This document shows positions 28,982 to 62,600 of a stretch of DNA of 64,000 nt, in pieces. Every line of letters starts with the position of its first letter. Position 1 is the stretch's first letter. A program made the translations under genes and the position numbers. The notes beneath the pieces were generated by a model. It had not been told where the DNA came from, did no database searches, and worked only from the letters and a program-made list of their open reading frames with translations. Source of the DNA: Styela clava (taxonomy: Eukaryota; Chordata; Ascidiacea; Stolidobranchia; Styelidae); assembly GCF_964204865.1 (NCBI RefSeq), contig NC_135252.1, positions 11,925,383-11,989,382 on the forward strand, given 5' to 3'.

Positions 28982-32871
<3,890 letters not shown>

Positions 32872-33089: not shown

Positions 33090-33535
33090 CACCACGGGCA
33101 GGAGGCCGTGGTTCGCCATGCAGCCATGTCAGCATGTGATCAAGCCGTCTTATCGTTTTCCCTCTTCTCCGCGATATATACGGTACCGGTACGGTATGGC
33201 GCGGCGGTGTGGCTCAACGGGCTAAGCGTTAGGAATACGCTTGCCACCGCACCTCTAATTACTCTGCGTGGGTTCGCAGGTTCGAATCCCATGCAGGGAT
33301 GGTTATGTGCGAGAGGATTGCTGGACTCCTTGCCGTCGTTGGGTGGTTCACGTAACCGCTGGTCGGTTACGGCTTCCTCCACCACCAAGTCCATGCTTCC
33401 GAAAACAAACAATACAGTAAAACTAATCCCATACCGGTACCCGACTTGGAATGGTAACCGGACGAGAGGCCGTGGTTCGCCATATGGATACGCCGTCTTA
33501 TCGGCTTTCCTCTCCCCCGGGATAAATATGTAAAA
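33090..33535 (+). mobile_element. tRNA-derived SINE, full copy with an extra 3' tail
   Basis: The head (from about 33201) has an A-box-like TGGCTCAACGGG at 33210-33221 and a perfect B box GGTTCGAATCC at 33279-33289, giving an internal RNA polymerase III promoter. The body continues through GAGAGGATTGCTGGACTCC and ends GGGATAAATATG near 33531. Just upstream (33095-33180) is a partial copy of the same tail (GAGGCCGTGGTTCGCCAT ... GCCGTCTTATCG), so two tails flank the head. Two related copies occur in this window (39050-39357 and 56370-56604). Confidence 0.8.
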
Positions 33536-34026: not shown

Positions 34027-36953
34027 CAGTGGCGGCGCGTGGTCATTTTGACAACCGGGGCAAGCTACTGTGGGACTAAGTCACCCCCATCTATGGGGAC
34101 AGAATGAGCGCTGTAAGTTCTCCCATCATTTTATGAGTATAAAAACCATTCAATCGTTTTGAAACCTCTTTCAAAAGGAAAGGCAATATTTACCCAGATA
34201 AATACAATGACATATTAACAGAAACTTCGGGAAAGCAGACAAAACCTAAAATAAGGTTTAAAACGTTACTATGAAGAAAGGAAAGCTAATGCAAAGATAA
34301 AGACAGGCGTCGCTCACTCATGGATATATATGCTGCTAGACTTCTACTGCTTGAACATATATGCAACACGCCGCGGTTTCTTGGAAGCAAAATGCTCAAT
34401 AACGCGCTGATTAAAGTCATGCATCCCAGAAATAACGTCTCTGTGAATGGATAAAACAGCCAAGGAATTTAATCTATCTTGCTTCATTGTGTTTCTGAGA
34501 TACGTTTTATTACGCTTCAGCGTGCTGAATGTTCGCTCTGCGTCGGCGGAAGAAATAGGCGTCGTCAAAATGATGTCCAGAAATTTTGCAGACGCCGCAA
34601 AGGTAGTTACTAGAGTGTTATCTATGAGGAACCCATAGAGCGCGCAAGTTGATGTGATGTTCAAAAAAGTTTGATTGGTGTATATACATCGCAATTCATT
34701 TTCCAATTTACCCACGTTTAACGTGGGGTAAAATTTGGAAACAGTAGCCAACAAATGGATGGGAAATTACCGTGCAAATTTTAAAAAATTTTTGGGATTC
34801 ATCAAAGAGAACGCGGCAAGGTGTTCAGTGCGCAGACGATCGCCTATTTGATTCACAAGAATGTCACAGCATTCCTTTGCAGACAAAATCAAACGCTGCG
34901 TTGTTTGCCCGCGGCGTAAAGAAGCACTCCATGTGTCGTCGTATTTTATTGTTTCCCGGATACGAGATACAGCATCGCAGAAGTCTGAAATACACGACTG
35001 CACAGACGCTCCATCCATTAGCCTTGACTGCAATGCGCCGTATAATACATCCACGTGATAGAATATTGTGGAGAAAAAAGCGAGAAAAAATTAAAAACTC
35101 ACCATCTTCTAGCAGACGCTTTAGACCTGCCGCCTCCCTCACAGAGCGTTCGTCCCAAACCGGATAGCTCTGAATGCCATTGAAACACTCAACGAGCTCA
35201 GACCTAATTTCGGACACGCCCTGCACCACGCGTGATTGGAAGTTTCAACGTGTTGGTGCACAAGCTGGGAGACGGCGGCTACATATCTGGCGAAGGAGGT
35301 CAGAGCGCTTCGGCGAAACGGAAAAAAATGAAGAAAACCCCGAAACATTTGCAAAAAATATACGGACGAAAGGGGTATCAAGACACATATTTTTAATAAC
35401 GAGGTTAAATTGGTGTGCATAACAATGTAAAAAATGCGCATGAGGAAAATCGTCTTTTAAATAAACTTGAACACCATGTTTCGACCCACTCATGACTGCC
35501 GCGCCGTCATAAGTTTGAGCTATCAATTTTGACTTCGCGTTGTAAGGCTGTAACACTTTTTTCAGTACAGCCGATATCCCGCAAGCCGTGCGATCAACGA
35601 TTGGTACAAAGCTGTGAAATCTCTCGGTAGGTTTACCATCTTTCACAAACCGAAAAATCACAGCCAGTTGGGAAACGCACGTGATGTCAGTTGTCTCGTC
35701 AGACTGAATCGAAAGGAACTGGCAATTCTCAATTTCCAGAGCCAAATGTTGTAAATAAATTTTATACATTGAGTCGAGCAAATCATTTTGGATATCCTTA
35801 GATGTCCCTTTCGAAACAGTTGCGGCATCAAGATGATCTCTCAATACTGTATCTAGGGATGCGGTGTATTCCACCATATCCAAAAATACCCCTCTATTAG
35901 AAGAGCCAGCCCGTTCATCGTGCCCACGGAGGGACAGCTCGTGAAAACCAATGAACTTCAAAACATCTATCAATCGACCGAGAACATGGCGATTTTTCTC
36001 GACGTTTTGGTTGTGCCGACGAATAGAAACCGCGCGTCCTTCATCCAACTGTGCTGCAATATTAACATTTCCGAATGTTCGGTATTTTACTGCATTGTCC
36101 AGATGCTCCATAGAAGATTGATGATCCCTGGCACGCTCGGAAAGATGTTTAAGATCTCTAAAACCAAATTTACACCAACGTGAGTCACGGGCGGTAGCAA
36201 AAAGTAGGCAATAAAAACAAAAAAGTCCATTTTTGTCCTCGCTGTAACACAACCATTCGTGTTTTTTTATACCAAGTTTCTGCGCAGAATGTACGCCGAC
36301 GCTTTCCTCCGTCATGGGATTGTTCCAGTGAACAATTTTTTGGTTGATAAGGCCCAAGACGTTGTACCTCTAATTTTTGTTCCAGCGGCAGCTGCGAAAA
36401 CGGAGTGCGAAGTAGTGCATCAACCTTATTCATTATGAGGTCTAAGGCTAAGAAATGCGAAGCCGGAAAGAAGTGAGGAGCTCAAAAGGAATGTGGAAAA
36501 TCGAAAGCAAATGGACTAAAAGTCTCTAACTGATTCAAATAGCGAAACAAGCGACAAAAACGAAGGCGAGGAAACTATCAACTCTTCAAGCAACCAACGA
36601 ACGAGAAGGAATGCGTGAATATGTCAACACGTTGTTGTAAGAAACGCCGGTATTGTGTCGTCATAATTTCGGGGCTAGCCCCGATCGGCCCAATGATTTA
36701 GTAAAAGAAACAGAAAACAAACGAGCGAGTGGAAGATAAAAGAGAGAATACGATATACAATGAGCAAAATCGGCGTCGCCCCGTCGACGTTCGGCGAAGG
36801 CTTTGCGAGCGAAAAATGAACCATGTCGGGAGAATATGGCTAGTGTAGACGGTCTGTGCAACCGATATTGAGGTATTTTTCGAATATTTTTTATTATACC
36901 GAAAAAACAACCGGGGCATTGCCCCGGTTGGCCCTATTGACGCGCCGCCACTG
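34027..36953 (-). mobile_element. hAT DNA transposon, full length, non-functional
   Basis: The left terminus CAGTGGCGGCGCGT (34027-34040) is inverted at the right terminus (ACGCGCCGCCACTG, 36940-36953). The similarity continues inward with an ACCGGGGCA block on each side. The 8-bp word ATAAAAAC flanks it directly (34019-34026 and 36954-36961), exactly the hAT duplication length. Near the right end a 21-bp palindrome centred at about 36920 (AACCGGGGC / GCCCCGGTT) could form a hairpin. The perfect duplication suggests a fairly recent insertion, yet the transposase is broken. Confidence 0.9.
34344..36433 (-). pseudogene. hAT transposase (ZMYM/DUF4371 type), broken
   Basis: Minus-strand pieces: 36433-36185 (start), 36357-35245 (370 residues), 35229-34864, 35054-34767 and 34754-34344. 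The large piece has a TTF-type zinc-finger pair (LFCFYCLLF), then the DUF4371-like region with SIQSDETTDITCVSQLAV and TYDGAAVMSG, followed by CYAHQFNLVI, the standard RNase H-like hAT core. The last piece carries the hATC dimerisation region (SSADAERTFSTLKRNK). The reading is broken by a frameshift near 36355, an in-frame stop at 35245, a frameshift near 35060-35100 and a stop at 34767. The element is therefore not autonomous, but it is close enough to an active relative for each domain to be recognised. Confidence 0.85.
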
Positions 36954-39049: not shown

Positions 39050-39357
39050 GAGTCTCGCTCGGCGAATAGCGCATTGTGGAAAGCGTTAGAAATACGCTCG
39101 TCATGGCACTTCTGATTACCCCGCGTGGGTTCGCATCCCATTGGAATGAAAATTACGTGCGACAGGATTACTGGATTCTTCTCGGTCGCAGGGTTAGCAC
39201 TTAGCCGTTGGTCAGTTACATCTTCTTCCACCCCCAAGACCATGCCTCCCAAACAAATAGCTGATAACTATTCCCATAACTAACCTGGACGAGGGGCTAT
39301 CGTTACGCATGTGATGGAGCCGTCTTATAGGCTCTTCTTTCCCTGGGATAAATATGA
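39050..39357 (+). mobile_element. tRNA-derived SINE, diverged copy
   Basis: This is the same family as the copy at 33.2-33.5 kb. It shares AAGCGTTAGAAATACGCT, CCGCGTGGGTTCGCATCCCA (a decayed B box), GGATTACTGGATTC and the tail GGGATAAATATGAAAT. Several substitutions and a changed head indicate an older insertion. Confidence 0.7.
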
Positions 39358-44046: not shown

Positions 44047-46838
44047 TTAAGTTTGACTCTTCGTACTACCATTAGAGTCAGGATACGTATACACAACAAG
44101 TGCTTCAGGCCAGATTCCTCGGCTTAATATTTCATCCACCATCAACACCACATCTCCTATCTTGAAATTAGGAACAGGTTGCATACTTGCATCCACTTCT
44201 GGCGTTGTTACAGTAGTGGGAGATACGCTCTGATCCAGCGTGACCAAAACTGGTTACACATCCACTGAACAGTTCGCCAGGATTTCTTGTAACCATCAGC
44301 TTTGATGAAAATGTCCGGCGGTAAGGAAGAATCCAAACTCCCAGTGAGAAGCGACATGGGAGTTAACGTTGTAGAATCATCTGGGTCCTCATTGACAGGT
44401 GTTAGAGGACGGTTGTTTGGAATCCATTCGATTTCTACCATCAGAGAATGTAAAGATTCATCACTGAGTACACGCTCATTTGTAAGAAAACGCACTATTT
44501 TTCGCACAGAGCGAATCATTCTTTCGAACACACCACCTTGGTGGCTGCTGGCGGGTGGATTCCATTTCCATTCAACTTCCTTCTGACAAAGACAGTCATG
44601 TATTTGTTGCTTGTTCCACCTCCTGATTCCTGTACGAAGCTCTTTCTCTGCTCCAACAAATGTAGAAGCATTGTCACTGACAATTTGTTTTGTCGTTGAA
44701 CCACGGCGATATAAGAATCGAAACAATGCTTGAATAAACGAGCTAGTTTCTAGTGAATAAACTACTTCAATATGAACAGCTCGGGTTGCAAGACATGTAA
44801 AAACACAAATCCAACGTTCCACATTACTGCGTCCCATTTTGGACAAGACAGGGCCCATGTAATCTAAGCCCACATAGGTGAAAGGTTTGTGGTGTGGAGT
44901 GACTCTACTCTTAGGTAGAGGTGCCATTAATTGTTCACCAGTCTTGGCTTTCCAGCGACGACATTGCCTGCAAGTGCGTAGATAATGTCGAACGGTCGAG
45001 TGACCATTGACAATCCAATACCGCTCTCTCGTTGCGGCAAGAACATGTTGAGTACCACAATGTCCGTGCTGTTTGTGAAAGAAGTCAATCAACAAACCAG
45101 TTACATGGTGTCTTTTTGGAAGAATCACGGGATGTTTTGAATATTCTGGCAAAGGGGAACTCTGCAAACGGCCACCAACACGTAAGATGCCATTTACAAG
45201 AATTGGGCGAAGTTTCTGCAAATTGTTGACATTCAACTTAACATTTCCTTGGTTCTTGATTGCATCAGCACAAGAACTGAAATCCTCAAAACTTAATATC
45301 ACATCTTTAAAGCAATGCGATTGCACAAGTTTGACAACCGCATCAGTTGTTCGGCAAAATTCTTTCACAGTCAAAAAACCCTTTTGTTTTGACTGCTCAT
45401 GCATTGAACTCCGCTTGTACTTCAGAAAGCGGATGTATCGCAAAATCCAAATAACTGCTCGAAGAAGTTTAGTGAAGGAAGAGTACATAACCAACAACCG
45501 ATCCAATTCATGAACAGTTTCTTGAGTCGAAATGTTGACCCTTGCTTCTTTCTTCAGTTCGGGATCATTTTCATTCAAGGGGGGTAATACGACAGGTCGT
45601 ATAGGCCATTTCGCTTCACTCTCTCGCAAGCAGAGTGGACCATTGAACCACAATTCAGCACGATTGACTTTGTCTGGCATAAGTCCGCGGGACGCCAGTG
45701 TTACGCTTAGAGTTAACGTGTCTCCATCGGTCAGGAGTTGTGTGCTTATTGATAAGAGCTATCCGATTGGCAATGAATATTTGAAAACGACGAGATTTGT
45801 TATTAATGTATTGCAAAACAGACGTTGAATCCGTCCAATAAACAACGCGATCTATTGATAATTCAAGCTCCTCAACTATCAATCGAGCAAGTTTCACTCC
45901 AACTACTGCAGCGGATAGTTCCAAGCGCGGAATAGTCATTGGTTTAGATGGGGACACACGTGATTTGCCCATAACAAAGGAAACACAATTTGTTGTGTCA
46001 TCGGGAGTACGCATATAGCAAACTGAGCCGTACCCCAGTTCACTAGCATCACAAAAACAATGCAACTCAATCCCAGTAACACCAGAGAGAGATTTAATGC
46101 ATCTTGGAATTGTTACAGATTCAAGTTGTGGTAGACAGCTTTTCCAAGTTGTCCAAGTCCTTTCATATTCCGGAGGAATTGCGTCATCCCATCCGAGCTC
46201 AAGTACACATAGTCTCTGCATTAATTTCTTCATCGATAGGAAGAACAGTTGAAGAAATCCCATTGGATCATAAAGTTGACTAACCATAGAAAGAATTTCA
46301 CGGCGTGTGGAAGGCTTCGGGGTAACATTAACTCTAATTTCGAAGTTATCAGTGGAGGTATTCCAATAGACACCAAGAGCACGGTCTACGGGAAGATCAT
46401 CAAAATCGAGCTTTTTGACTGATGGAGCCAAGTCACCTTGTTCAACAGCGGGAAGGACTTGTCGAGAGTTACTCAGAAACTTTGTGAGAGTAAATCCGCC
46501 TGATTTGAGTAATAGAATTAATTCATCAATCAGAGTTTTGATGTCATCGAAGACATTGACTTCAAAAGATCATCAACATCAAAAATTGTTTAATACAGTC
46601 GAAATTGTTTCAGAACTGGCATTTGATTCATTAAGCTTAGCAACAGTTTTAAGAGCATACGTTACACAAGGTGGACTAGAAGTTGCACCAAAGATATGTA
46701 CATTCATTCGGTGATCTTTAGGGATTCGTGTGATATCTCCCTTTGACCACCATAGAAAACAAAAGAGAATCACGGTCAACAGGATCCACCAAAACTTGGT
46801 GAAAATTTTTCTTGGCGGAAACGCAATAACGTTCCAAT
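44047..46838 (-). pseudogene. BEL/Pao pol, 3' half: RT end, RNase H, integrase
   Basis: Minus-strand pieces, 5' to 3'. The end of the reverse transcriptase (about 46600-46560) carries VDDLLKS, although the residue before VDD is Asp where Tyr is usual; a frame change follows at once. 46431-45655 holds the rest of the polymerase and RNase H (LYDPMGFL, HCFCDASELGYG, YWTDSTSVLQYI). 45680-44208 is a 490-residue open frame with the BEL integrase: a zinc-binding H..H..CRQC region, then VGLDYMGPV, IVSDNAS and HQGGVFERMIRSV, which give the D, D and E of the active site. 44247-44047 holds the short C-terminal DUF5641-like end (FKIGDVVLM). The integrase frame is intact, the rest is broken. Confidence 0.88.
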
Positions 46839-49800: not shown

Positions 49801-50007
49801 TTGACGCAGTCCTGCACTGCGGCATAAAATATTTCCTTTTTGTCAGTGACAAGCTTGTAGTTCGTTGTTGCGACATTAACTGGTTAATTTCTTTGTTAAT
49901 ATTAACCACATTTTGTATCATATTGTTTAATGATCAAATCATGTCAGTAAGACCTCCAGTTTTTTGTTGTGATGTTGTTGAAACTGTTTCCTCGCTTTCA
50001 TTAGACA
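46838..50007 (-). pseudogene. BEL/Pao gag, zinc knuckle, protease and RT start
   Basis: The likely start at 50007 (MSNESEETVST) meets an in-frame stop after about 24 codons. Gag-like pieces follow at 49921-49355 (Glu/Arg-rich coiled coil), 49341-48907, 48977-48723 (HFDGSPLNYFQFVKTF, the DUF1759-type capsid signature) and 48626-48192. 48202-47525 has a CCHC knuckle (CFNCSSKGHGSKDC), a second Cys/His pair (CKHCGKHHH) and the aspartic protease region (FLDEGSDTTF). 47368-46838 contains the start of the polymerase region (RLPWCDDNVKMPYNRR, then VGPKFRVVFNSP). At least five frame breaks separate these parts. Confidence 0.85.
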
Positions 50008-50197
50008 TCTTGCTTCTTTCAGATACTACAAATGCGAGTGCACCGTATTGAAGTCGGCAATAATTCAGCAAAACCTTTTGTTAAACTGAGTGATGAAACA
50101 AGAATTAGCAGTTTTTGCACTTATTCAGCAATTAACAAGAATAGCTGTCAAATTCTTCTAAGAAGTCTAGTGATCCAGGTTGAAGTTTTGTAAAAAA

Positions 50198-50970
50198 TGT
50201 TGGATATTTGGACTAGAGTTCTAGCGTTTGACTTTAGCGTACTATAGACTCCGAATCATTTGCTCGGTGCAAACAATAATACTTTGATACGATCTTAGTT
50301 GAACCTTGCAAAATCCCCCCCCCCCCTCCCAGTTCCACACTGTCAAACAATCTGAATTACTTTGAAACTTATATTGAAAAGGTTCCACAGCACTTTAAAT
50401 GTCGAAAGTTAATCATCAAGCAGCAAATCCAGAAATAATGACAGTAAACATATAGGTAACTTGCAGGTGTAGATAACGTCTTGAGAACAAATACGAAACG
50501 TCCAAACCGGGGTAATGGGTAACTAGTATCGTAACGGGTAATGGGTATGCTAACGGGGGTTTTACAAAAGTGAACAACTTAAATCACAATTAGGATAAAT
50601 AACTTAACTGCAAATAAATAACAATAAGGGACATTCAGTGGAGCTATAATTCGTATTCAATCATAAACATATAACTAGTCTGAATGCAATAGCCCTAAAC
50701 AACTAAAAACAAAATCTAATAGTCACGGTAACTAAACTAAGTCATACGCAACCTACTGCATTACAACCATAATCTAGCAATTACAGTTACAAACGCCACG
50801 TCTCGATAATCAAAGATGCTCGCCGACTTCTGCAAGTCTAGAAACGTCTCGATGTGACATCACAAAGGGGTACACGTAAATAAATTGAGCAACGCGATTG
50901 CGACACTATAATGTAAAGTTGTAAACAACTTGATTACAAAATGAAATTTGATTATTAGCAGTCCGTAACA
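50198..50970 (-). repeat. 5' LTR of the BEL/Pao element
   Basis: 773 bp. On the + strand it begins TGTTGGATATTTGG and ends CCGTAACA, so it has the usual TG...CA ends. It differs from the 3' LTR mainly by indels: a C-tract at about 50317-50331, a local duplication around GGGTAATGGGTA (50512-50550), a short insertion near 50868-50884 and another at about 50910. Substitutions are few. Confidence 0.9.
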
Positions 50971-51126
50971 ACCGCTCAGTGGGAGACTGCCATACGCATG
51001 TCCTTTGCTTCAACTCGAGCGGAAGTAAATATGCAAAATCATGACGACTTCATTGATTTTGAAAATGCAGAGGCCCTTCCACAATATAGTGATGTTTTGA
51101 AAAATACTCTGCAAGTCTTGGGATAA

Positions 51127-52590
51127 ACGCGGACAAAAAAAAAGATTGGCTGAAGTTATGCACGAAAAATCCCAACTCAGCACCACAGTTTCTACGAAGC
51201 ACTGGATGTGAAATAATCACGAAAGACAAATTTCAATTTTGAAGTTGAGCGTTTCTTTTGTGACATGTTCCCTCGAGCAACTGAATGTAGTAAAATACAT
51301 TCGGAATTCATTGAATTTTTGCAAAGACTGTGGAATAGAAACAAATAATTGAAATATGCAAAACCGTTTCATCCATCTCAATGGCTTGAGATCACTGTTT
51401 TTCTTTACACCACATAATTCATTGCGTTCCTACATTTATAATTTTTGATGTGGTTGCTGCCATGGTGTTGTATCGTGTTTGTGTCAGTTCATTTCAGAAA
51501 TCAACTATTTACCCTCAATATTGTTTTTACACCTCATTTTCCATGAAACAAGATATCGATCATGGCAGAGCTGTATTATAATTGCTTCTCCACATTTTCA
51601 CTTGGTTGCACGATATTACGAAGCTATGTTATTAACTTGTTTTCCTAGTGCGTTTCTGTTAATTCTACAGTATATTTCATTTGTTACACGGTGTTTCCAC
51701 TCGCTAGAGCATTTGTTCTGGTTGTCTTATTTAATTATCTGGTATTCTGTTTGAACCAAGTTGAATGATATTATGTTCTTAATGCTGAGTCCTGCAGCTG
51801 ACATTTTCAATAGAACAACAAAGGTCTTCTTGGGATAATATAACATCGGAGGTCCGAAGAAAGAATATATTTTGATTTGAAAGTTGTCTTGAAGTTATTT
51901 AGAATTGTTCAACTAATGCTTGCAGTTTTTCGTTAGCAGAAAAAAAACAGTAATAATTAGAAAAGACTTATTTATCAAAATTGTTGGGAGATATGCAGGA
52001 AAGATAAAGTGCTGTGGAAATTCATTCAGATTTTTTCATCTAGTTAATCAGCTTCTTTAAACACAGTAAATTTCATTAATTTAATAGAGAACTAATCACT
52101 ATTGGGACAAAAAACTTTAGAGTTGTAAGCATGGGACATCAAATGTAACCGATGATAGCTTTTTACCAATGATGACAATAGAAAAGAGATACCTTGTCGA
52201 ATTAGAGAGCTCAAAATAGTTTATACAGTTCGTCTCGGCTACTTGTATGCACGTTGTTATCATTTATATCATAAATGGCTTCATAGAATAATGTTTGCTA
52301 GGTTTTAAGCAATTGATTAAGTCACACCAGCGGCAAATATAAAAACAAATTATTTAGTGCAAAAGAGACTTATGTCCAAAACAGTGTAAAAAAAATAAAC
52401 AAGAGAATGCAAAAAAATAAAATCTAAAAAATGCAGGAGAATGCAACAATTAAATTGGACTAAAAATTTTATACAGCTATGCAAAAATAAAATTATTATG
52501 GAAAATTAACCCCCGAAAAAAACTTTAATTGAAGGCCATTTTCTCAGAATGTCAAAATGAACATAAGTCACTCTTGTTCTAGGGCAGCGA
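51127..52590. other. Right non-coding part of the DNA transposon
   Basis: After the transposase stop the sequence has no supported coding region. Copies of the subterminal word (GACTTATGTCC at about 52367, ACATAAGTCA at about 52561) appear towards the right TIR. Confidence 0.45.
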
Positions 52591-54673
52591 TATGATCTTT
52601 TCTCAATTCTAATGTTAACAACCCTATTGGCTATGGTAACCCTAGTCCAGGAGTGGCCAATCCGCGGCGGCAATCCGCATGCGGCTCTATCTCCGGTTTC
52701 ATGCGGCTCTTTTCGCCTTGGTTATTTTGAGGAAAAAATAAGTTGCAAACTACGATTCATCATGTTTTGAATAAACATATTATGAATTATCGTGCATTCT
52801 TTTTTTACGTCGAAAATACACTAACACAATCACATTCTTTGTTGCAAGACGCGTGTATCGGGGCTGAGAGTCATCTATGCGAAAAATTGGTTTCGGTTTC
52901 TTATCTTTGTTTGGATCGTTATTCTTGGCTTATATTTATAACGGGGTTGAATTTTTGTGCAATTTACGCTTCGAAGTTGATGGCTCAGATATTCTTCACT
53001 GGTATCGTATTTCTTCCTGATTTTTTTTACTGGAGTTGTAATTTGTGTTTCAGATGTTTTTCCTTTTGAGATTAGATGCATTTGTTCCCGTTTTTATATA
53101 TTAACCCTGGTTTTCTAGGTTCGTCTGCTCTCAGGAGTCCACCTTTCACTCATCGGTCACAGATATTGGATAAAAAAAATATCTTAAATCATTTTGCTTT
53201 CTCTCACAATTTTACTTTTTAATTGGTTATAAACTGATCTACGGTATCCGTGAAATCAATGCGTCCGTGAAACAAATCTTAGTACGAGTCATTACAAAAC
53301 ACAAGAATGAATAACAGGAATTGCAGACAGGTAAAAACGAGGAGCAAGTACTAGAAAACAATTATGACACCATAATCACAAATCTAGTCCGTGTGAAAAA
53401 GCGGGCTACGCCGCAAAGACCCAAAAATTATTTTATTTATTCAAGATTTTGTGGAATAATTGAACAAATATAAGCATAGAACTCCCAGACAATACACGAA
53501 TACCCAGACGAATGCTAGACCGCATATTCTATCGTTTGGGACCAAATGGTGACAGATTTATATACTGTTCACAAGGCACATTTAAATACTCCAGAATATC
53601 GCTTTAAATTGTTTCCACCGTTTACCTCGCCCATGAATCTGGCGATATTCGTGACGACCTAGGTTTGAAAAAACACGAACGTCCATATCCATGAGTTCAA
53701 AACACATCTCCCAAAGATAGGATTCATTTATTACACACATAAATATTTACAAGCACAGAAAATGAATGAACCAAGAAACAGCTGATTCCAAAACCTTACT
53801 CTGTCACATACAAATAGGTGGTGAAAGAATAGCAAGACTGTTTGACCTGTTGGCAAGCGACGCTTGGGGGTACTTTCGATAAGCTCATTATTAACTATGT
53901 TACTTTTGTTAAGAACAAAAAATAATTGACAGTCCTGAGTGTGTATTAGTTTTATAAAATTGGTGCAGATTATTTATAAGATGTAATAATTTGAATCAAA
54001 GTATAGAGCACAAAATTGTACATCATAATCATTTTGCACCACAACAATGGAATATAAAATAACCGAAAACACACTCAAGCATCCCTGAGTGTAATCATCT
54101 CGGTAAATGATTAAGTATTGCTGTAGCATTAATATTGTCAGATGACACAAGCCCATTCCATATTATCACAGGAAATACATTATGATATATTGATATGAAT
54201 TAATGATAATGCTTATAAGCATATTTACATATTCAAAATTGATATTGTCAGTATAATTTATATTGTTGATATGATAACGATAGTTATCACAAACAAATGC
54301 GGAAGAAAATAAATTGTTTTACACAGTACTAGAAAAGTAATCCAACTAAAAAATACTGCTTATATCACTAGTTAGTTATTCAACAAGGAGGCACAAAAAA
54401 ACATACTCTAAGAAAGATAATGAAATGGAAAAATTAATATACTCAATATATCTGAAATTAATAAAAAAGATCTTCTTAAGGAAATCCGATTGAGAGATTT
54501 CAGTAGGGTAACAACTATTCGCTTTACATATACAGTTTCAAAATATCAATGTTTATCGAAATTCTTATTTCAAGATTTTATCATCAAAAACTTTTTTTTA
54601 TCAAATTATAAATTCGGTAAGGCAATCTGAGTATTGGCCTAACTAGAATTTGGCAGCAAATTTCAACAATAGA
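52591..54673. other. Gene-free region with a hAT-like end
   Basis: At about 52651 the text CAGGAGTGGCCAATCCGCGG, followed by two copies of ATGCGGCTCT, has the look of a non-autonomous hAT terminus; its partner was not found. Open frames such as 52743-53069 (+) are not supported as genes. The last few hundred bases (54.2-54.67 kb) are probably the NCOA4 3' untranslated region. Confidence 0.35.
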
Positions 54674-56026
54674 TCAGCAGGTAAGCAAACGTTGAAGCTG
54701 GTTTGACAACAGGTTTACTGGATCCGTGCCAAAAAAGACTCCGTCGTGTGACTCAAAAATTGGCCCAGCTAAAACATCACCCTGATATATATGTGCTAAT
54801 TTTTTATGCAATTTGAATACTTCGTCTGCAGATCCTGAATCCTTTTTCTCAGATCCATCCAACGATGAGTCAAAATAAGAACTTTTGTTGTCTGCTGAGA
54901 CAGCCTCTGTATATTTGCAGAAATTTGTTCCAATAACAGACAGTTTGCCATCCTCATTCCCATCTATTATTCTTTGTAATTTAGAATTGAGATCGCCAAT
55001 AATATCTGTTTCCTCCACTAAAGAAGTTGTTTTTTTTGACTTTGATGATTGATCACACATGGAGCCAAGAATACCATTCACCGCATTAGTTATCTGAATC
55101 AAAGGATCATCACCAAGTCTGTCTTCTGTTTCAGGCTTGGTACTCCCACCCTTGTTGTTATAGTCTTGAAATCCGCCCTGGCCTTCTGCATATACAGCCT
55201 CAAGCTTGTCATGTAGTTCACCAACAGGATCCATACTTGCGTTCATCTGTGATATTTTAATGCAGGGAGTATCGCAAACGCATTCGCTGATTGAACAACA
55301 AATTTCATTAGCCTTGCAAAATTTTTTTAGAAGATCAGATCTGTCAAAATCAGACCCTACTGGCACCTGTTCTTGACAGATAGTATCAGAGTTAAGTATA
55401 GTTGAAAAATCCATATCTTCAATCTCATATGAGGATTGACAGCATGTTGCCATTGTGCCACAACATCTGCCTTTGACAGCCGCCTCTTCGTTGTCATCTT
55501 CTTCATTTTCTAATCTTTCATCAACTAGATCCCATGACTTTTCTGTCAAAAATGAATCAGTCTCATCTGCGTCACTACAAGACTTAGTTTGTAGTCTACC
55601 ATACGATAAGATTGAATTCCGTAGTTGGATATCGTTGTGCATAAATTTGATCGAAGGAAATCGAGTGTCATTAGAATGTGCATACTCTTGTACCTTCTTT
55701 TGCAATTGTGCCATCACATCGGATGCTCGGTCTACTCCCTCTAAATAATCATGTTCCTTGGAAAAACTCATAAAATTTGTGCATTCCCCCATTCTGCCTT
55801 TAACTTCAGCCATTGATATTTGTTTTTTCATCATCAGTGCCATAGTAGTTTCTTTTAGGTTGTCCACTTGATCTAGAAGCCAAAGTTCTCTTGATGCCAA
55901 TGACTTCTTGTGCTGCAGGAAAATTGCACGTATTTCTTCCTTCAAATTCATAGCTTGTGAATTGAATTCACTCACAGCCATACGCTGAATACTATTATCT
56001 TGGAATGCAGCTGACATAGTGCTCAT
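54674..56026 (-). CDS. NCOA4: NCOA4 homologue (ferritinophagy receptor)
   Basis: One exon encodes 450 residues from the ATG at 56026, which directly follows an acceptor-like TGTGCAG, so an upstream exon may add N-terminal residues or only 5' UTR. Residues about 15-80 match the N-terminal ARA70 coiled-coil domain (SLASRELWLLDQVDNLKE against human CLRSREVWLYEQVDLIYQ). FMHNDIQLRNSILSYGRLQT (about 128-147) matches human FEADTITLRQTITTFGSLKT. The diagnostic part is the cysteine cluster at 237-255: its spacing C-x5-C-x5-C-x-C-x3-C is the same as human CRANEPCTSFAECVCDENC, and both share ANE and ECVCD. In vertebrates NCOA4 binds ferritin heavy chain and delivers it to autophagosomes, and this region is linked to iron sensing. 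The rest is acidic and carries five copies of a DPV-x2-L-x2-KL-x2-I motif. It is shorter than human NCOA4 (614). Confidence 0.85.
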   Translation of the reverse strand: MSTMSAAFQDNSIQRMAVSEFNSQAMNLKEEIRAIFLQHKKSLASRELWLLDQVDNLKETTMALMMKKQISMAEVKGRMGECTNFMSFSKEHDYLEGVDRASDVMAQLQKKVQEYAHSNDTRFPSIKFMHNDIQLRNSILSYGRLQTKSCSDADETDSFLTEKSWDLVDERLENEEDDNEEAAVKGRCCGTMATCCQSSYEIEDMDFSTILNSDTICQEQVPVGSDFDRSDLLKKFCKANEICCSISECVCDTPCIKISQMNASMDPVGELHDKLEAVYAEGQGGFQDYNNKGGSTKPETEDRLGDDPLIQITNAVNGILGSMCDQSSKSKKTTSLVEETDIIGDLNSKLQRIIDGNEDGKLSVIGTNFCKYTEAVSADNKSSYFDSSLDGSEKKDSGSADEVFKLHKKLAHIYQGDVLAGPIFESHDGVFFGTDPVNLLSNQLQRLLTC

Positions 56027-56369
56027 CTGCACACAATTTTGATTGAGTTAAAAAAAATGTGGGTTGTAACTGAATGAAAAGAAATTGAATAAGGTGCTTA
56101 TGTAACATAGATATAATTTTAATGTATGTAGCAATGTATCACTGTAACAATCTTTTTTGCTTAGAGAATTATTTATTTTCTGCAAATGAGCACAATGTAT
56201 AGTTGAACATTGTGCAGTATGAAATAATATACTTGTGTTATTGCAGTGTGGCACAGTTCTCAGATTCGAAGATAAATAAAACAAACACTCTATTTGTCTC
56301 TGAATTGAGGCATGCTTTTTTTGATAATACTTTAAATCGAGCCCAATGTCTAAATGTGCGTTGGCTGCC

Positions 56370-56604
56370 ATATTTATCTTGAGGGAGAGGAAAGCCGGTT
56401 CGTTTTCAGAAGCATGGACTTGGTGGTGGAGGAAGCCGTAACCGACCAGCGGTTAGTGGACCATCCCACGACGGCGAGGAGTCCAGCAATCCTCTCATAC
56501 ATAACTACCCCCACATGGGATTCAAACCCACGCGGAGTAATCAGAGGTGCAGTGGCAAGTGTGTTCCTAACGCTTAGCACGATGAGCCACACCACCGCGC
56601 CGCG
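56370..56604 (-). mobile_element. tRNA-derived SINE, inverted copy upstream of NCOA4
   Basis: Read on the minus strand, it starts GCGCGGTGGTGTGGCTCATCG, has AAGCGTTAGGAACACACTTGCC, a decayed B box (GGTTTGAATCCC), GAGAGGATTGCTGGACTCC and the tail AAGATAAATATGG. It is very similar to the copy at 33.2-33.5 kb. It lies about 340 bp upstream of the NCOA4 coding exon, on the same strand, where a promoter or 5' exon would be expected. Confidence 0.78.
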
Positions 56605-59600
56605 TTCACCATTTTCAAAATTCATTAACCATTGTTCCCTTATTGCCTTCTGCATTTACACAATAACACCAGTAACACTAACATTATTCAGTTATTGAAG
56701 TCCCTAACATGCCATATTTCCGTCATCCATTTATCTCTGTAAAATGGAAATTCAATACAAAAAGTTTAACCCGCGTATCCACTGCAGCGAGATGAACTGG
56801 ACGTAAAGCGAACAAATCGCAAGTAGCCAACAGGGTCAGACTGGCCTGCGAACGACAACCTCACACGGTCGCAACAAAGCAAGTCACAGAAATCCGACAT
56901 TATAAATGGCGTTTTACTCACGTACGGGAAAAGAGAGAGAGTCGCCAAGACGCCAACTAGCGATCGTATAATGGTAATCGGATTAATTTGACAACGAGAA
57001 AGCTCAAATATATGGACACTTAGAATAAAACGAAATATATTATGATCACTTCACCAAAAACCATAGGGTACCCTACGCCTTCGAGGCGGTATCCTGCACG
57101 AATCTGAACAGTAAAACAGCTACATGGCTATGGTAACTGATTTACTAGTACTTGGGTACAAATACCGGACAGGGACTGTCATAGCTCTTCCATGTCCTGT
57201 GGTAATGATCTATTCTTCTCCATCCAATTTCAACGTGAATTGAAATACCAAGGGATCCGAGTCACTTCTTCATTACGGTACCAGGCAAAATAAGGAGAAA
57301 ATATCGATTCCCCGATAATAATATGCGGTGCGGTAACTTACCAGTAGGGCCTACCTGCTATTCGTTCGTGGAACGGTTCTTCCTTGTCATATAAGAACTC
57401 AATTCAATGTTGTTTAATGTCATTGATTTGATACTATGAAAGGTGGTAATATCCAGTCGTGTGGCTGTGGTGTTGTGGTTTCGGGAAAATGCTTATTAAA
57501 CCACTGCGAAAAATCATGAAGATGACTGATTATAGACTATTTCACAATGTTTTGACTAAACTCGTTTTCTTCGAGAAATCGTTCAGCTCAGAAAACATAT
57601 CCATTCTTCTATTTTCGACTCCATTTTACAGTTAATCAAAAATGCCTTACAATAACAAATGTAACAGCACCCTAACTATTTAATTTAGAATGGACAAATC
57701 TCTTTATCTGTCTTTATCAACCAATTCCACAGGGCTACTGCTGACCTCGCATTGCTACCAAACAGAACAATTGTCCACGTAGTAGACTTTCGATCCCAGC
57801 AAAATTCTTCCGCTTTATACTCTACCATTGCAAAATTATTGATACTTATTTCAAAAATGGTTTTGCGAGTTGGCGCCTATAAACCGGTTTATATGTTTCA
57901 AACTATTAATTTAATTCAATACATTCAACAACCTTTCATGTACCGTAGAGAAGTTTGACTTAGTTTATCACAGCTATTTCTAGATTAATTTTTGATTACT
58001 GCATTTAAAATAAAACTCAGACAAAGCAAAATGATTATTTAGTTATTTGATTAAGACCTATATTTACGATACCTAAACACCACTAAAAACTAACAAATAG
58101 TCCGCAAAAACCGCCAAAACGAGGTGATATTCACAACCACGAAAGACTGTCTGAATGGCAAAAGTATCTGAGCGCTTCTGAAACGTTTATTGTTACGTCA
58201 AATTTTGCACTTATGCTGATTGGCCAATGTTACGGCAGTAAATAAGGAAGTGTATACTCGGGAAAACATCCATAATTGTAATCAGAGATTTATAAATTTG
58301 TTATACATAAATACGCTATACTGACGCGATGCTCATATTTATGGCAAATTTAAATTGTTTTGCGACTCAGAGCGGAGGGCTTCGCGACCCAATTATGGGT
58401 CGCGACCCCGTAGTTGCGGAGCCCTGTCGAAAATTTGAAAGCAATTGGTCCAGTATTCGAAGAGCAAAGCGATTTTATAATGATGGTGACAAAGAATAAC
58501 AATACCCTCAAGAGAGCTATGCTCAAATATATGAGTAGAATAAACGAAATATATTATCATCACTCCACCGAAAACCATAGGGTTCCCCACGCCTTCGGTG
58601 CGGTATCCTGCACGAATCTGAACAGTGAAACAGCTACATGGCTATGGTAACTGACTTACTAGTACTTGGGTACAAATAACGGTACAGGGACTGTCATAGC
58701 TTTTCCATGTCCTGTGGTAATGATTTATTCTTTTCCATCCAATTTCAACGTGAATTGAAATACAAAGTGATCCGAGTCACTTATTCATTACGGTACCAGG
58801 CAAAATAAGAAGAAAATATCGATTCCCCGATAATCATATGCGGTATGGTAACTTACCAATATGGCCTACTTGATATTCGGTTCCAGAACGGTTCTTCTTG
58901 TCATATAAGTACTCAATTCAATTCCTCTTATCAAATAAAAAAAAAAGATAGGCTACAAAATTTATGTTGTTTACATCAGGACTGTAACGAAAAGATGAGA
59001 GCGTAATTCATAGAGGTTCCATACGGTACCTTACCAGTACCTGTTGCTGTACTGTAGACCTGCTATTCGATCGTGGAACGGTTCTTTTCTGACATATAAA
59101 AACTCAATTCAATTTGCTGTTATCAAAATTAACATAGTACGGTAGGCTAGATTTGCTAGAAACCCTACATTTGACATTACTGCAATAGTAAGATCGCGAA
59201 AGAAACAAGAGAGCTACGCACAAATATATGGACACGTTAGACCAGAGCGAATCAGTCCTTACCGGTACCTTTGACGCTACCGGTACCCTCAAAAAAGTTC
59301 TGAATTTCCAGTAGCAAGAATTTTGCAGAATCCAAATGTACAGCCAGTCATGACACTGACTAAAATCCGTGTTCCCATGGATAAATATTAATACAGCAAA
59401 AATTTAGACGAAATATCAAATTTCATAGAATTCACGCAAAATTTTGAAATAAATAAAAGTAATAGCCTTCTAGCGAAAAAATTAATCTTTAACCACTAAA
59501 AAATTTCAAAGCAATTTGTCCAGTATTCGAAGAGAAAAGCGACTTTTTGAAAACGTGTCAAAGAACAAGAACAACATAATATTGAAACGATCGTTATGTC

Positions 59601-62600
59601 CACTTCGTGTCCAATAAGTCAATTTCACTGTGGTACAGTAACTGAGTGCCGTACCTGCAGGCTCGATTACGCAACCGCTTGAAATAAGTTTCAAAACAGT
59701 GTTCACATGAGTAAATTTTAGATTAGAAAAATTTTGAATGAAATATCAGATCTCATAGGATTTATAGGAAATTTGGGAATAAATAAAAGTAATAGCCTTC
59801 TGGAAAAAAATCAAACTTAAAAGCGATTTTATAATAATGATGGTGACGAAGAACAAGAGAGCAATGCTCAAATATATGGACACGCAGAACAATTCCCCAA
59901 AAATCATATGCGGTGACCAACGACTAACATACCGGCGGTGACTTACCAGTACCTGTATCGGGGTACCGTGACGGTACAGGGACTGTCATAGATATTTTAG
60001 GTCCTGTGACAATTGAAACATCAGTTGAAATATCTCGTGATATGAGTCAATTATGTACCGTATTATCGGATCAGGTACCAAACCACAGTCAAACATTTCA
60101 CATAAAAACGTTACTAAATAACATGCGTCAACTTAACACCAGCCGAATCGGGGTACAATTTTTGGTACAGTGACTGCCATAGCCGTTTAGGGCTGATGGA
60201 CAATTCGACTACACGGACAACTCACCAGGCCTAGGGTGGTGTAGCCATTCTGCGGACAATTTCATTCAAACCGCTATAAAACAAAAACTCCATTGTGTAA
60301 TTTGGACTTCAATTACTAAATATAAAACAAAGAGAGAGATCTCATCAATGACACTTATTTCGGCCACCCGCTGTTATTTAATCAAGAAATTCACAGATTT
60401 CATTGATTATTTAACATGCGTGACTCCTATAATTCTACTATGATTGTTTAAATATGCATGTAACTGCTTTTCGTGTTGTAGTTGAATTATGTATGTCTGA
60501 AGAAGTCTGACCTTGGTCAGACGAAACGTTACAGAAATATATTTGTGTTAGTGTGCAGCAAGACTCTTGAATCACTTAGCAATATATCTAACCCGTTAAT
60601 TTTTTCACCGTGGGTGCATTGGCGGCATTTATTCTATACGCTAAACCTCGTATTAACTTTCTACGACAAAGGGTTGAAGCTATACAAATCCCCAAAGTAC
60701 GGCACTCGAAAGACGTATTTGCGACCGAACGACCAGTGTGCGACCACGGATTTCAAGCCTTGATCATCGTTTATGCTGCGTCGAGACTATCGCATACGCA
60801 GCCATACAGCAATCAAACAGACAAAACACGTGGTCGCAAATTGGTTGACAATTGTTGGTCTTGTGACAGCGTGAAAACATTGGGCTTCTAATTGCATTTC
60901 TGACCGTCATATATTTCAAGAACACGGTTATTTCGAACAAAACTCGTTGAATTATAAACAAAGCACCACATCACAGCAATCAAACAGACGAAAACACGGT
61001 GGCCGCAAATTGGTTGACAAAGATATTATCGACGTATCGGAAATGCACACCCCCTATTCCCCCTCCTTCAAATGTAGAAACGCGAAACTTTCAAATGTGG
61101 TTAAAAGAAACACAACTCTACCCACCTGCCAAGTTTCATCTTTTTATTTCTCATATTTGTATGGATTTTCAAGCTTTTGACAGCTACGAGTTAGTTCAGT
61201 GTCACCGCGCTGTGTTACGGTACCAGAACTTCTCTATCTTTAGAAGTCCTGTCTTGTGACAGCGTGAATTGAAATTGCAAGATGGTCCGTTGGACACAAA
61301 ATGGCGTCCGATACCCGCAGAACGTGTCCAACAACATAATATTGAAACGATCGTTATGTCCTAAAGTGTACAATTATTTATTATAGTTTAAATTAGTGCA
61401 ACTAAGTTTTCAACTATATCCCATGTTGACATCCTTTTTTACCATATATTTCCTACCCGTTCAGGTTATATCGTGATTATCTTGAGTCCCAATTCAATAT
61501 TGGATATAATCTGTTTACATTTGTATTATTGTTTGTTCCTAAAGTTTGTAAATATATTACTGGTTTAACGTAGTATATATTTACGGTCCAACTTGTTCTT
61601 TAAGTCATCTTAAAATTTGAATCTTATCCATACAAACGAAATGGGTGGGAGTTGACCTCGATGACCAGATGGTCGTATCGCTCCCTGCTGTTCATACAAA
61701 AACAATTTTATTGATATTATATTACTGTATTGATGACTGCATTTTTGGTTGACAAAATAACAAATCTCTCCCTCTTTTTTTGCCAGCTGTTGTCATGTGC
61801 CGGCAGCTTGGTCTCATGACCTGAGATAATGTGATAATATATTGTTGCCAGGTTTGTTGTCACAAACGCTTTTTTGCTAGATCTATTCAGTTCATAAATA
61901 ATTGTACTGATACGTATGGCGTTTGTGTTTTATTTTAAAGGCTATTTATTTATGTCGTGGTAATCAGCCACGTAATTAGTTGGTCTGTATCAATCTATAT
62001 GACAATCTCTAATTTCTATACCTGGAATCAACTAAAAAATAAACTACTGATACTGAACTATGGGTTTTCATCAGTATATCTGGCAACTGGTTTATTTAAT
62101 ATTTCGCTTTCCTGCTCCGTGGCTCATTTGCAATTATTGTACCTTCACCAATCGATCCGTCGATGAACTTACGCCCTGCAAGTGAATCACATATAGTTTA
62201 GCGGGCTAGACCGGTACGGTAATTCATGTTTTCTATTTGTTGCCGGTATATTTGATTAAGTGCATGCTCACGTCTAATTAGAAGTACTAAAAGTATTAAA
62301 ATTGATTGATTACCGTACCGGTACCGGTACTGCTGTGGACTAAAGCCCGGTACGTTCCGGTACAGGCATACCGTAGTACAGTCTGCAAGTCTTTGCCCAT
62401 TTCTTGACTTCTGTATTTTATTGAATTTGGCGATTTGATGTTGAGCCTACCTGTACCGTGTCAAATACCCAGAGCATTTGTTATTTATTATATTTATATG
62501 TACCGGTACAGCGGTATGCATAAATCTGGAAATTAATTTTTTTGGTTTGTTGAATGAAAAACTACAGGTATTTATCTTACTACAGTAATAGAATACCAGT

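Follow-up and report, generated by a model that had tools for sequence, protein, structure and literature searches.

A very likely NCOA4 ortholog with a human-type cysteine block and five tail repeats that may grip ferritin

Introduction

How does an NCOA4-like protein that keeps the cysteine block of its human counterpart, but carries five copies of a different repeat in place of the human WL motifs, recognise its cargo? Human NCOA4 makes ferritin condensates through dimerisation and ferritin binding (PMC9452830). Holo-NCOA4 is described as the substrate of HERC2, and ferritin is bound by apo-NCOA4 (PMC10831263). NCOA4 orthologs are stated to exist throughout metazoans (PMC4592949; PMC11222541), and the functional work on NCOA4 that we found concerns the human protein. 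A locus encoding such a protein outside the human system raises the question of which parts of the receptor are fixed and which are free to change.

The coding frame and its surroundings

The window, i.e., the whole stretch of DNA that was analysed, comprises 64,000 nucleotides. The original prediction had placed an NCOA4 gene in it without stating the strand, and the coordinates are correct: the minus strand is unbroken over the entire interval (Table 1) and the plus strand of the same interval contains many stops. A run of 450 open codons would arise with a probability of about 1e-14 at the composition of window positions 50001-60000, and the G+C content by codon position is 0.47 at the first, 0.36 at the second and 0.33 at the third. 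A second in-frame ATG is present at codon 4. Directly 5' of the first ATG, the minus strand reads ...gtgtgcag, a sequence that may mark a 3' splice site within the 5' leader. The complete coding sequence is contained in one intronless frame, while human NCOA4 has many coding exons, and intron loss or a retrogene origin is therefore possible. The nearest downstream AATAAA/ATTAAA occurs about 940 bases beyond the stop. A known RNA at the locus was rejected, as no Rfam family reached its cut-off across the window; in a permissive scan of positions 53400-57400, RAGATH-30 and four snoRNA families gave five matches, all below threshold, and an IRE was absent from them.

Table 1. Features of the NCOA4-like locus, with positions counted along the window
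Feature	Position	Strand	Residues	Basis
NCOA4-like coding frame, unbroken	54674..56026	minus	450 aa + stop	translation; alignment to human NCOA4
Coiled-coil region, counterpart of human 37-159 (dimerisation region)	55586..55978	minus	17-147	BLASTP/Smith-Waterman
Candidate LIR FSTI after EDMD	55397..55408	minus	207-210	1 acidic LIR vs 0.72 expected in shuffles, not beyond chance
Cysteine block C-x5-C-x5-C-x-C-x3-C	55262..55318	minus	237-255	sequence, alignment
Repeat 1, DPVGELHDKLEAVYAE	55184..55231	minus	266-281	motif, profile, DNA comparison
Repeat 2, DPLIQITNAVNGILGS, weakest copy	55061..55108	minus	307-322	motif, profile, DNA comparison
Repeat 3, DIIGDLNSKLQRIIDG	54959..55006	minus	341-356	motif, profile, DNA comparison
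Repeat 4, DEVFKLHKKLAHIYQG	54779..54826	minus	401-416	motif, profile, DNA comparison
Repeat 5, DPVNLLSNQLQRLLTC, extreme C-terminus	54677..54724	minus	435-450	motif, profile, DNA comparison

Several other elements were observed in the window. At 29370-31154 on the minus strand, a splicing factor resembling CDC5L is represented by a large exon (Myb_Cef, E 1.4e-58). A DUF4371 transposase-like frame is located at 35248-36369 (minus, E 2.3e-18), and a retroelement frame at 44211-45758 (minus) contains the zinc-binding integrase domain Integrase_H2C2 (E 7.4e-9), with the integrase core under its cut-off. This retroelement, which we guess to be of the BEL/Pao type, is adjoined by broken frames up to about 49933. 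Together, the CDC5L-like exon, the DUF4371 element and the retroelement integrase domain suggest that the window is animal DNA. It is plausible that the host is an invertebrate. A short SINE-like element is found at 56371-56625, just upstream of the NCOA4-like gene, and has further copies at 33198-33410 (86% identity) and 39069-39248 (74% identity).

Relationship to human NCOA4

Two separate regions of the protein match human NCOA4 in the same order, and it is therefore very likely the NCOA4 ortholog that the original prediction had named. Compared with a partly verified human sequence, residues 17-147 aligned with positions 37-159 at 21% identity (BLASTP 38.9 bits; Smith-Waterman z 11.3). Residues 233-257 aligned with positions 400-424 (52% identity over 25 residues, z 8.5). 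For both regions, 0 of 2000 shuffles scored as high. The corresponding BLAST E-values, 3e-7 and 5e-6, refer to a one-sequence database and were calculated without composition correction. The tail after the cysteine block did not align to human NCOA4 (160 of 2000 shuffles scored as high), and the human protein is longer, with 614 amino acids versus 450 here.

Among solved structures, the best phmmer match was the NCOA4 chain 9l93_C, which covers residues 233-258 at a weak E of 0.012. The two chains are alike in the cysteine block, over which 26 residues align, and differ directly after it, where the human chain continues with EALYKWLLKKEG and the protein here reaches the start of repeat 1 ten residues on. 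Judging from the title of a work cited in PMC12872393, chain 9l93_C probably represents NCOA4 in complex with HERC2.

The original prediction had regarded a failed profile search as evidence against NCOA4, and the search with Pfam ARA70 did fail, giving no match in the protein here. The best stretch of ARA70 on human NCOA4 is however 199-327, which is situated inside the WL array, a feature that the protein here lacks. Two further database matches were set aside: a weak match to paralemmin stayed under its cut-off and fits a coiled-coil likeness, and a match to T4 RegA was taken as a chance or repeat effect. In scans of viral and prokaryote contigs for relatives, one pattern scan gave 0 matches, another gave 20, none of which was confirmed, and further scans gave none.

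In the N-terminal coiled coil, F36 and L43 align with human I56 and L63, and hence both dimer positions are hydrophobic; I56 and L63 are given as dimer residues in PMC9452830. A single-sequence AlphaFold2 model (mean pLDDT 40.8) shows the region as mostly helical; its block-wise pLDDT is about 54-70 over residues 11-120 and drops to about 30 beyond them. Human NCOA4 and the protein here are thus alike in having an N-terminal coiled coil in the same order and with hydrophobic dimer positions, and by this likeness the coiled coil would pair two chains.

The cysteine block

The spacing C-x5-C-x5-C-x-C-x3-C, for which identity with the vertebrate protein had been claimed, is exact and the same as in human NCOA4 (block sequence CKANEICCSISECVCDTPC). 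C237, C243, C249, C251 and C255 align with human C404, C410, C416, C418 and C422, and an extra C244 is present next to C243. In human NCOA4, the iron-sulfur cluster is liganded by C404, C410, C416 and C422 and survives a C418A exchange (PMC10831263). All four ligand positions are occupied by cysteine here (C237, C243, C249 and C255). Considering the identical spacing and the 52% identity over 25 residues, the protein here presumably contains an iron switch as well. A second cysteine cluster, CCGTMATCC (C-C-x5-C-C; residues 188-196, 55439-55465 minus), is located about 40 residues upstream of the block and may form a further metal or redox site.

Five repeats in the tail

The tail that follows the cysteine block contains five repeat copies: DPVGELHDKLEAVY at 266, DPLIQITNAVNGIL at 307, DIIGDLNSKLQRII at 341, DEVFKLHKKLAHIY at 401 and DPVNLLSNQLQRLL at 435. 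Each copy opens with Asp, which is followed by Pro in three of them; the start-to-start spacing is 41, 34, 60 and 34 residues and the linkers between the repeats are 18 to 44 residues long. The original prediction located all five copies exactly, but its literal motif, D-(P/I/E)-(V/I)-x2-L-x2-(K/Q)-L-x2-I, matches just two of the five copies, those at 341 and 401. When relaxed to D-[PIE]-[VIL]-x2-[LI]-x3-[LV]-x2-[VIL]-[YIL], the motif matches 5 of 5 copies and nothing else in the protein; its hydrophobic classes were widened after seeing the copies and are thus fitted to the data.

The repeats exceed chance. When the whole protein was shuffled 20,000 times, one match was obtained once with the literal motif and 13 times with the relaxed motif, and neither motif matched twice. 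A leave-one-out profile test is fairer than the relaxed motif, because the tested copy is excluded from the profile. In this test, four of the five copies ranked first of 431 positions with scores of 8.1-11.8, the best other position per left-out copy reaching 3.9-5.9; the copy at 307 came fourth of 431, scoring 0.29 where the best other position scored 4.13. Any two copies are identical at 2-7 of 16 residues and at 29-52% of the nucleotide positions, and a recent DNA duplication was rejected as their source on account of this low identity at the DNA level. A repeat finder detected two short families within the frame, neither of them inside the five repeats. The pattern is kept at the protein level and not at the DNA level, which suggests selection.

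These data also bear on the possibility that the repeats have no specific function and are simply helical stretches in a fast-evolving disordered tail. The tail is poorly predicted and the copy at 307 is weak, as this explanation would have it, but five matches to a 14-residue pattern, even one fitted to the copies, contrast with at most one in the shuffles, and four of the five copies are recovered in first place by the others in spite of their divergence in DNA. We therefore regard an absence of function as unlikely.

In the AlphaFold2 model, each repeat is helical over 12-13 of 13 residues, although pLDDT is below 50 throughout residues 118-450; when five windows were placed at random within the tail, all five were helical over at least 12 residues in 0.05% of the placements. 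The helical hydrophobic moment of the copies is modestly high and is reached by 2% to 14% of shuffles, depending on the copy. The short-helix reading of the original prediction therefore agrees with the model in form, at a model confidence in the tail that is below 50, and the repeats are predicted to be amphipathic helices.

The spacing of hydrophobic residues at +2, +5, +9 and +12 equals the a/d spacing of two heptads, and this allows a different interpretation, in which the repeats serve self-association, pairing mutually or with the N-terminal coiled coil, and build the condensate rather than grip the cargo. In line with this, the repeat profile scores highest outside the repeats on DVMAQLQKKVQEYAHS at 103 (4.49), within the coiled-coil region, and a profile search of the PDB ranked the helical neck repeats of CLEC4M first, without any individual stretch passing. 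However, isolated 14-residue helices on long linkers are weak coiled-coil formers, and the match at 103 may reflect ordinary coiled-coil likeness. The matches of the repeat profile to CLEC4M, Lin2111 and haemagglutinin were themselves taken as chance or repeat effects, and we judge self-association to be an improbable role of the repeats.

Comparison with the human WL array and its ferritin site

In the human sequence, 12 of the 13 Trp residues between positions 191 and 614 are part of a W[LV] motif, compared with a mean of 1.9 in shuffles. The protein here has Trp at 49 and 165 only, and its single WL, at 49, is part of the coiled coil. As had been proposed, the human-type WL array is absent, and where human NCOA4 has its W[LV] motifs, the protein here has five D-x-V-x2-L-x3-L-x2-I-like repeats instead. 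Human NCOA4 contacts ferritin via W497 within a binding element at 484-499 (PMC11076521; PDB 8QU9). W497 falls within one of the 12 W[LV] motifs, and a repeated motif that includes the cargo site therefore has a precedent in the human protein. The remaining human WL motifs may bind ferritin or a partner weakly, though the fragment 383-522 alone works in cells.

A counterpart of the human ferritin element DSFQVIKNSPLSEWLI was not detected here with the repeat profile, which places the element 188th of 599 positions, with a score that 36% of its shuffles reach. The element and the repeats are alike in being short helices with an Asp start and hydrophobic residues at +2, +5 and +13, a likeness that is not significant. 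They differ in that P493 divides the human element, which makes use of Trp, into an alpha helix and a 3-10 helix (PMC11076521), while each repeat is predicted as one continuous, Trp-free helix. Despite the shared hydrophobic positions, the repeats were accordingly rejected as plain homologs of the human element, based on its low profile rank. Because this element is defined on the human protein, its lack counts against a human-type ferritin site and not against orthology.

The ferritin side of the interface was compared in four ferritin sequence types (7dlb, 6lp5, 7vt2 and 6a4u), which we take to be invertebrate. They were obtained from ten alignments, their positions were assigned to human numbering by eye, and they represent the best-scoring matches to chosen queries rather than a random sample. 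In these four types, the position of human FTH1 F82 is Val in 4 of 4 and N22 is Asn in 4 of 4; the R23 position is Arg in two and Lys in two, the K87 position is Lys in two, Ser in one and Ala in one, and the D90 position is Asp in three and Ser in one. In human FTH1, F82 forms a wall of the W497 pocket (PMC11076521). By these alignments, the ferritin groove appears partly kept and the Trp pocket changed in the four types, and Val at the F82 position would fit a receptor without WL tryptophans.

Possible partners of the repeats

The repeats are probably multivalent binding helices, and ferritin would be the first candidate for their partner. A repeated motif in the corresponding tail, after a kept cysteine block, is most simply read as a repeated binding site. 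The gene product would be the animal's NCOA4, i.e., the receptor that carries ferritin into lysosomes. When iron is plentiful, the cysteine block would hold an iron-sulfur cluster and mark the protein for HERC2-driven removal; when the cluster is missing, the receptor would be active, provided that the cluster switch operates as in the human protein. Each tail would present five short amphipathic helices capped by Asp, and a dimer would thus offer about ten weak binding helices. Their likeliest target would be the surface groove of ferritin, and many weak contacts could cross-link ferritin cages into condensates that are taken up by autophagy. Taken as a whole, an NCOA4 ortholog whose repeats act as multivalent ferritin-gripping helices is a serious but tentative proposal, to which we assign somewhat less than an even chance. 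The missing profile match to the human element, the weak copy at 307, the tail pLDDT below 50 and the non-uniform ferritin groove argue against ferritin as the partner.

Data on the human protein also show that many sites are not needed in that system. In cells, the human fragment 383-522, which has one mapped ferritin site and no coiled coil, supports the degradation of ferritin (PMC12872393). Likewise, ferritin puncta persist when human NCOA4 lacks the M or the C domain (PMC9452830), while deletion of IDR1 is given in the same source both as failing and as restoring puncta.

The autophagy machinery, which the original prediction had named beside ferritin, could be bound by the repeats in place of cargo; an Atg8 protein, a TAX1BP1-like adaptor or a protein of the initiation complex might recognise a helical motif that is repeated for avidity. 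Avidity is required for the binding of human NCOA4 to GATE16, which involves two weak motifs, and the human cysteine block also carries an Atg8-binding motif, 413-FAECV (PMC12872393). The core Phe of this motif is Ile here, which is hydrophobic but not aromatic, and Atg8 binding may therefore have to come from elsewhere in the protein. A counterpart of the second human Atg8-binding motif, 485-SFQVI, was not found here with the repeat profile. The repeats themselves offer little to an Atg8 protein: [WFY]-x-x-[LIV] occurs in none of them, and its four matches (123, 142, 165 and 207) are all outside and below the chance expectation of 5.3. A more conventional Atg8 candidate, EDMDFSTI at 203-210, is found upstream of the cysteine block. 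Binding of the autophagy machinery is thus given a low probability.

Imitation of known short helical motifs would connect the repeats to other pathways, namely to MIT domains through an ESCRT-III MIM1-like sequence, with ferritin entering endosomal microautophagy, or to nuclear receptors through an LxxLL box. L-x-x-[RK]-L-x-x-[LIV] is present in three of the five copies (266, 341 and 401), and the last copy contains LQRLL. The MIM1 consensus has an acidic residue three positions before the first Leu, and this consensus has 0 matches across the whole protein; LxxLL is limited to one copy. Although human ferritin condensates also reach endosomes by an ESCRT-dependent route (PMC9452830), we consider either form of imitation very unlikely.

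Concluding remarks

The titles and abstract openings of the open-access papers listed for invertebrate or metazoan NCOA4 do not describe repeats of this kind; others may nevertheless have already seen them. With ferritin retained as the preferred partner of the repeats, the most far-reaching version of this proposal is that in this animal lineage an independent five-fold helical motif takes the place of the human WL array and grips ferritin at many points, which we consider doubtful. If true, the iron switch would be ancient and fixed, and the cargo grip would have arisen as a different repeated motif on each side, alongside the change from F82 to Val in ferritin. The combination of a fixed cysteine block with a wholly different tail separates the ancient control of ferritinophagy from the part of the receptor that changes freely. 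If the repeats bind ferritin, they would provide a natural multivalent design that can be compared with the single solved human site.
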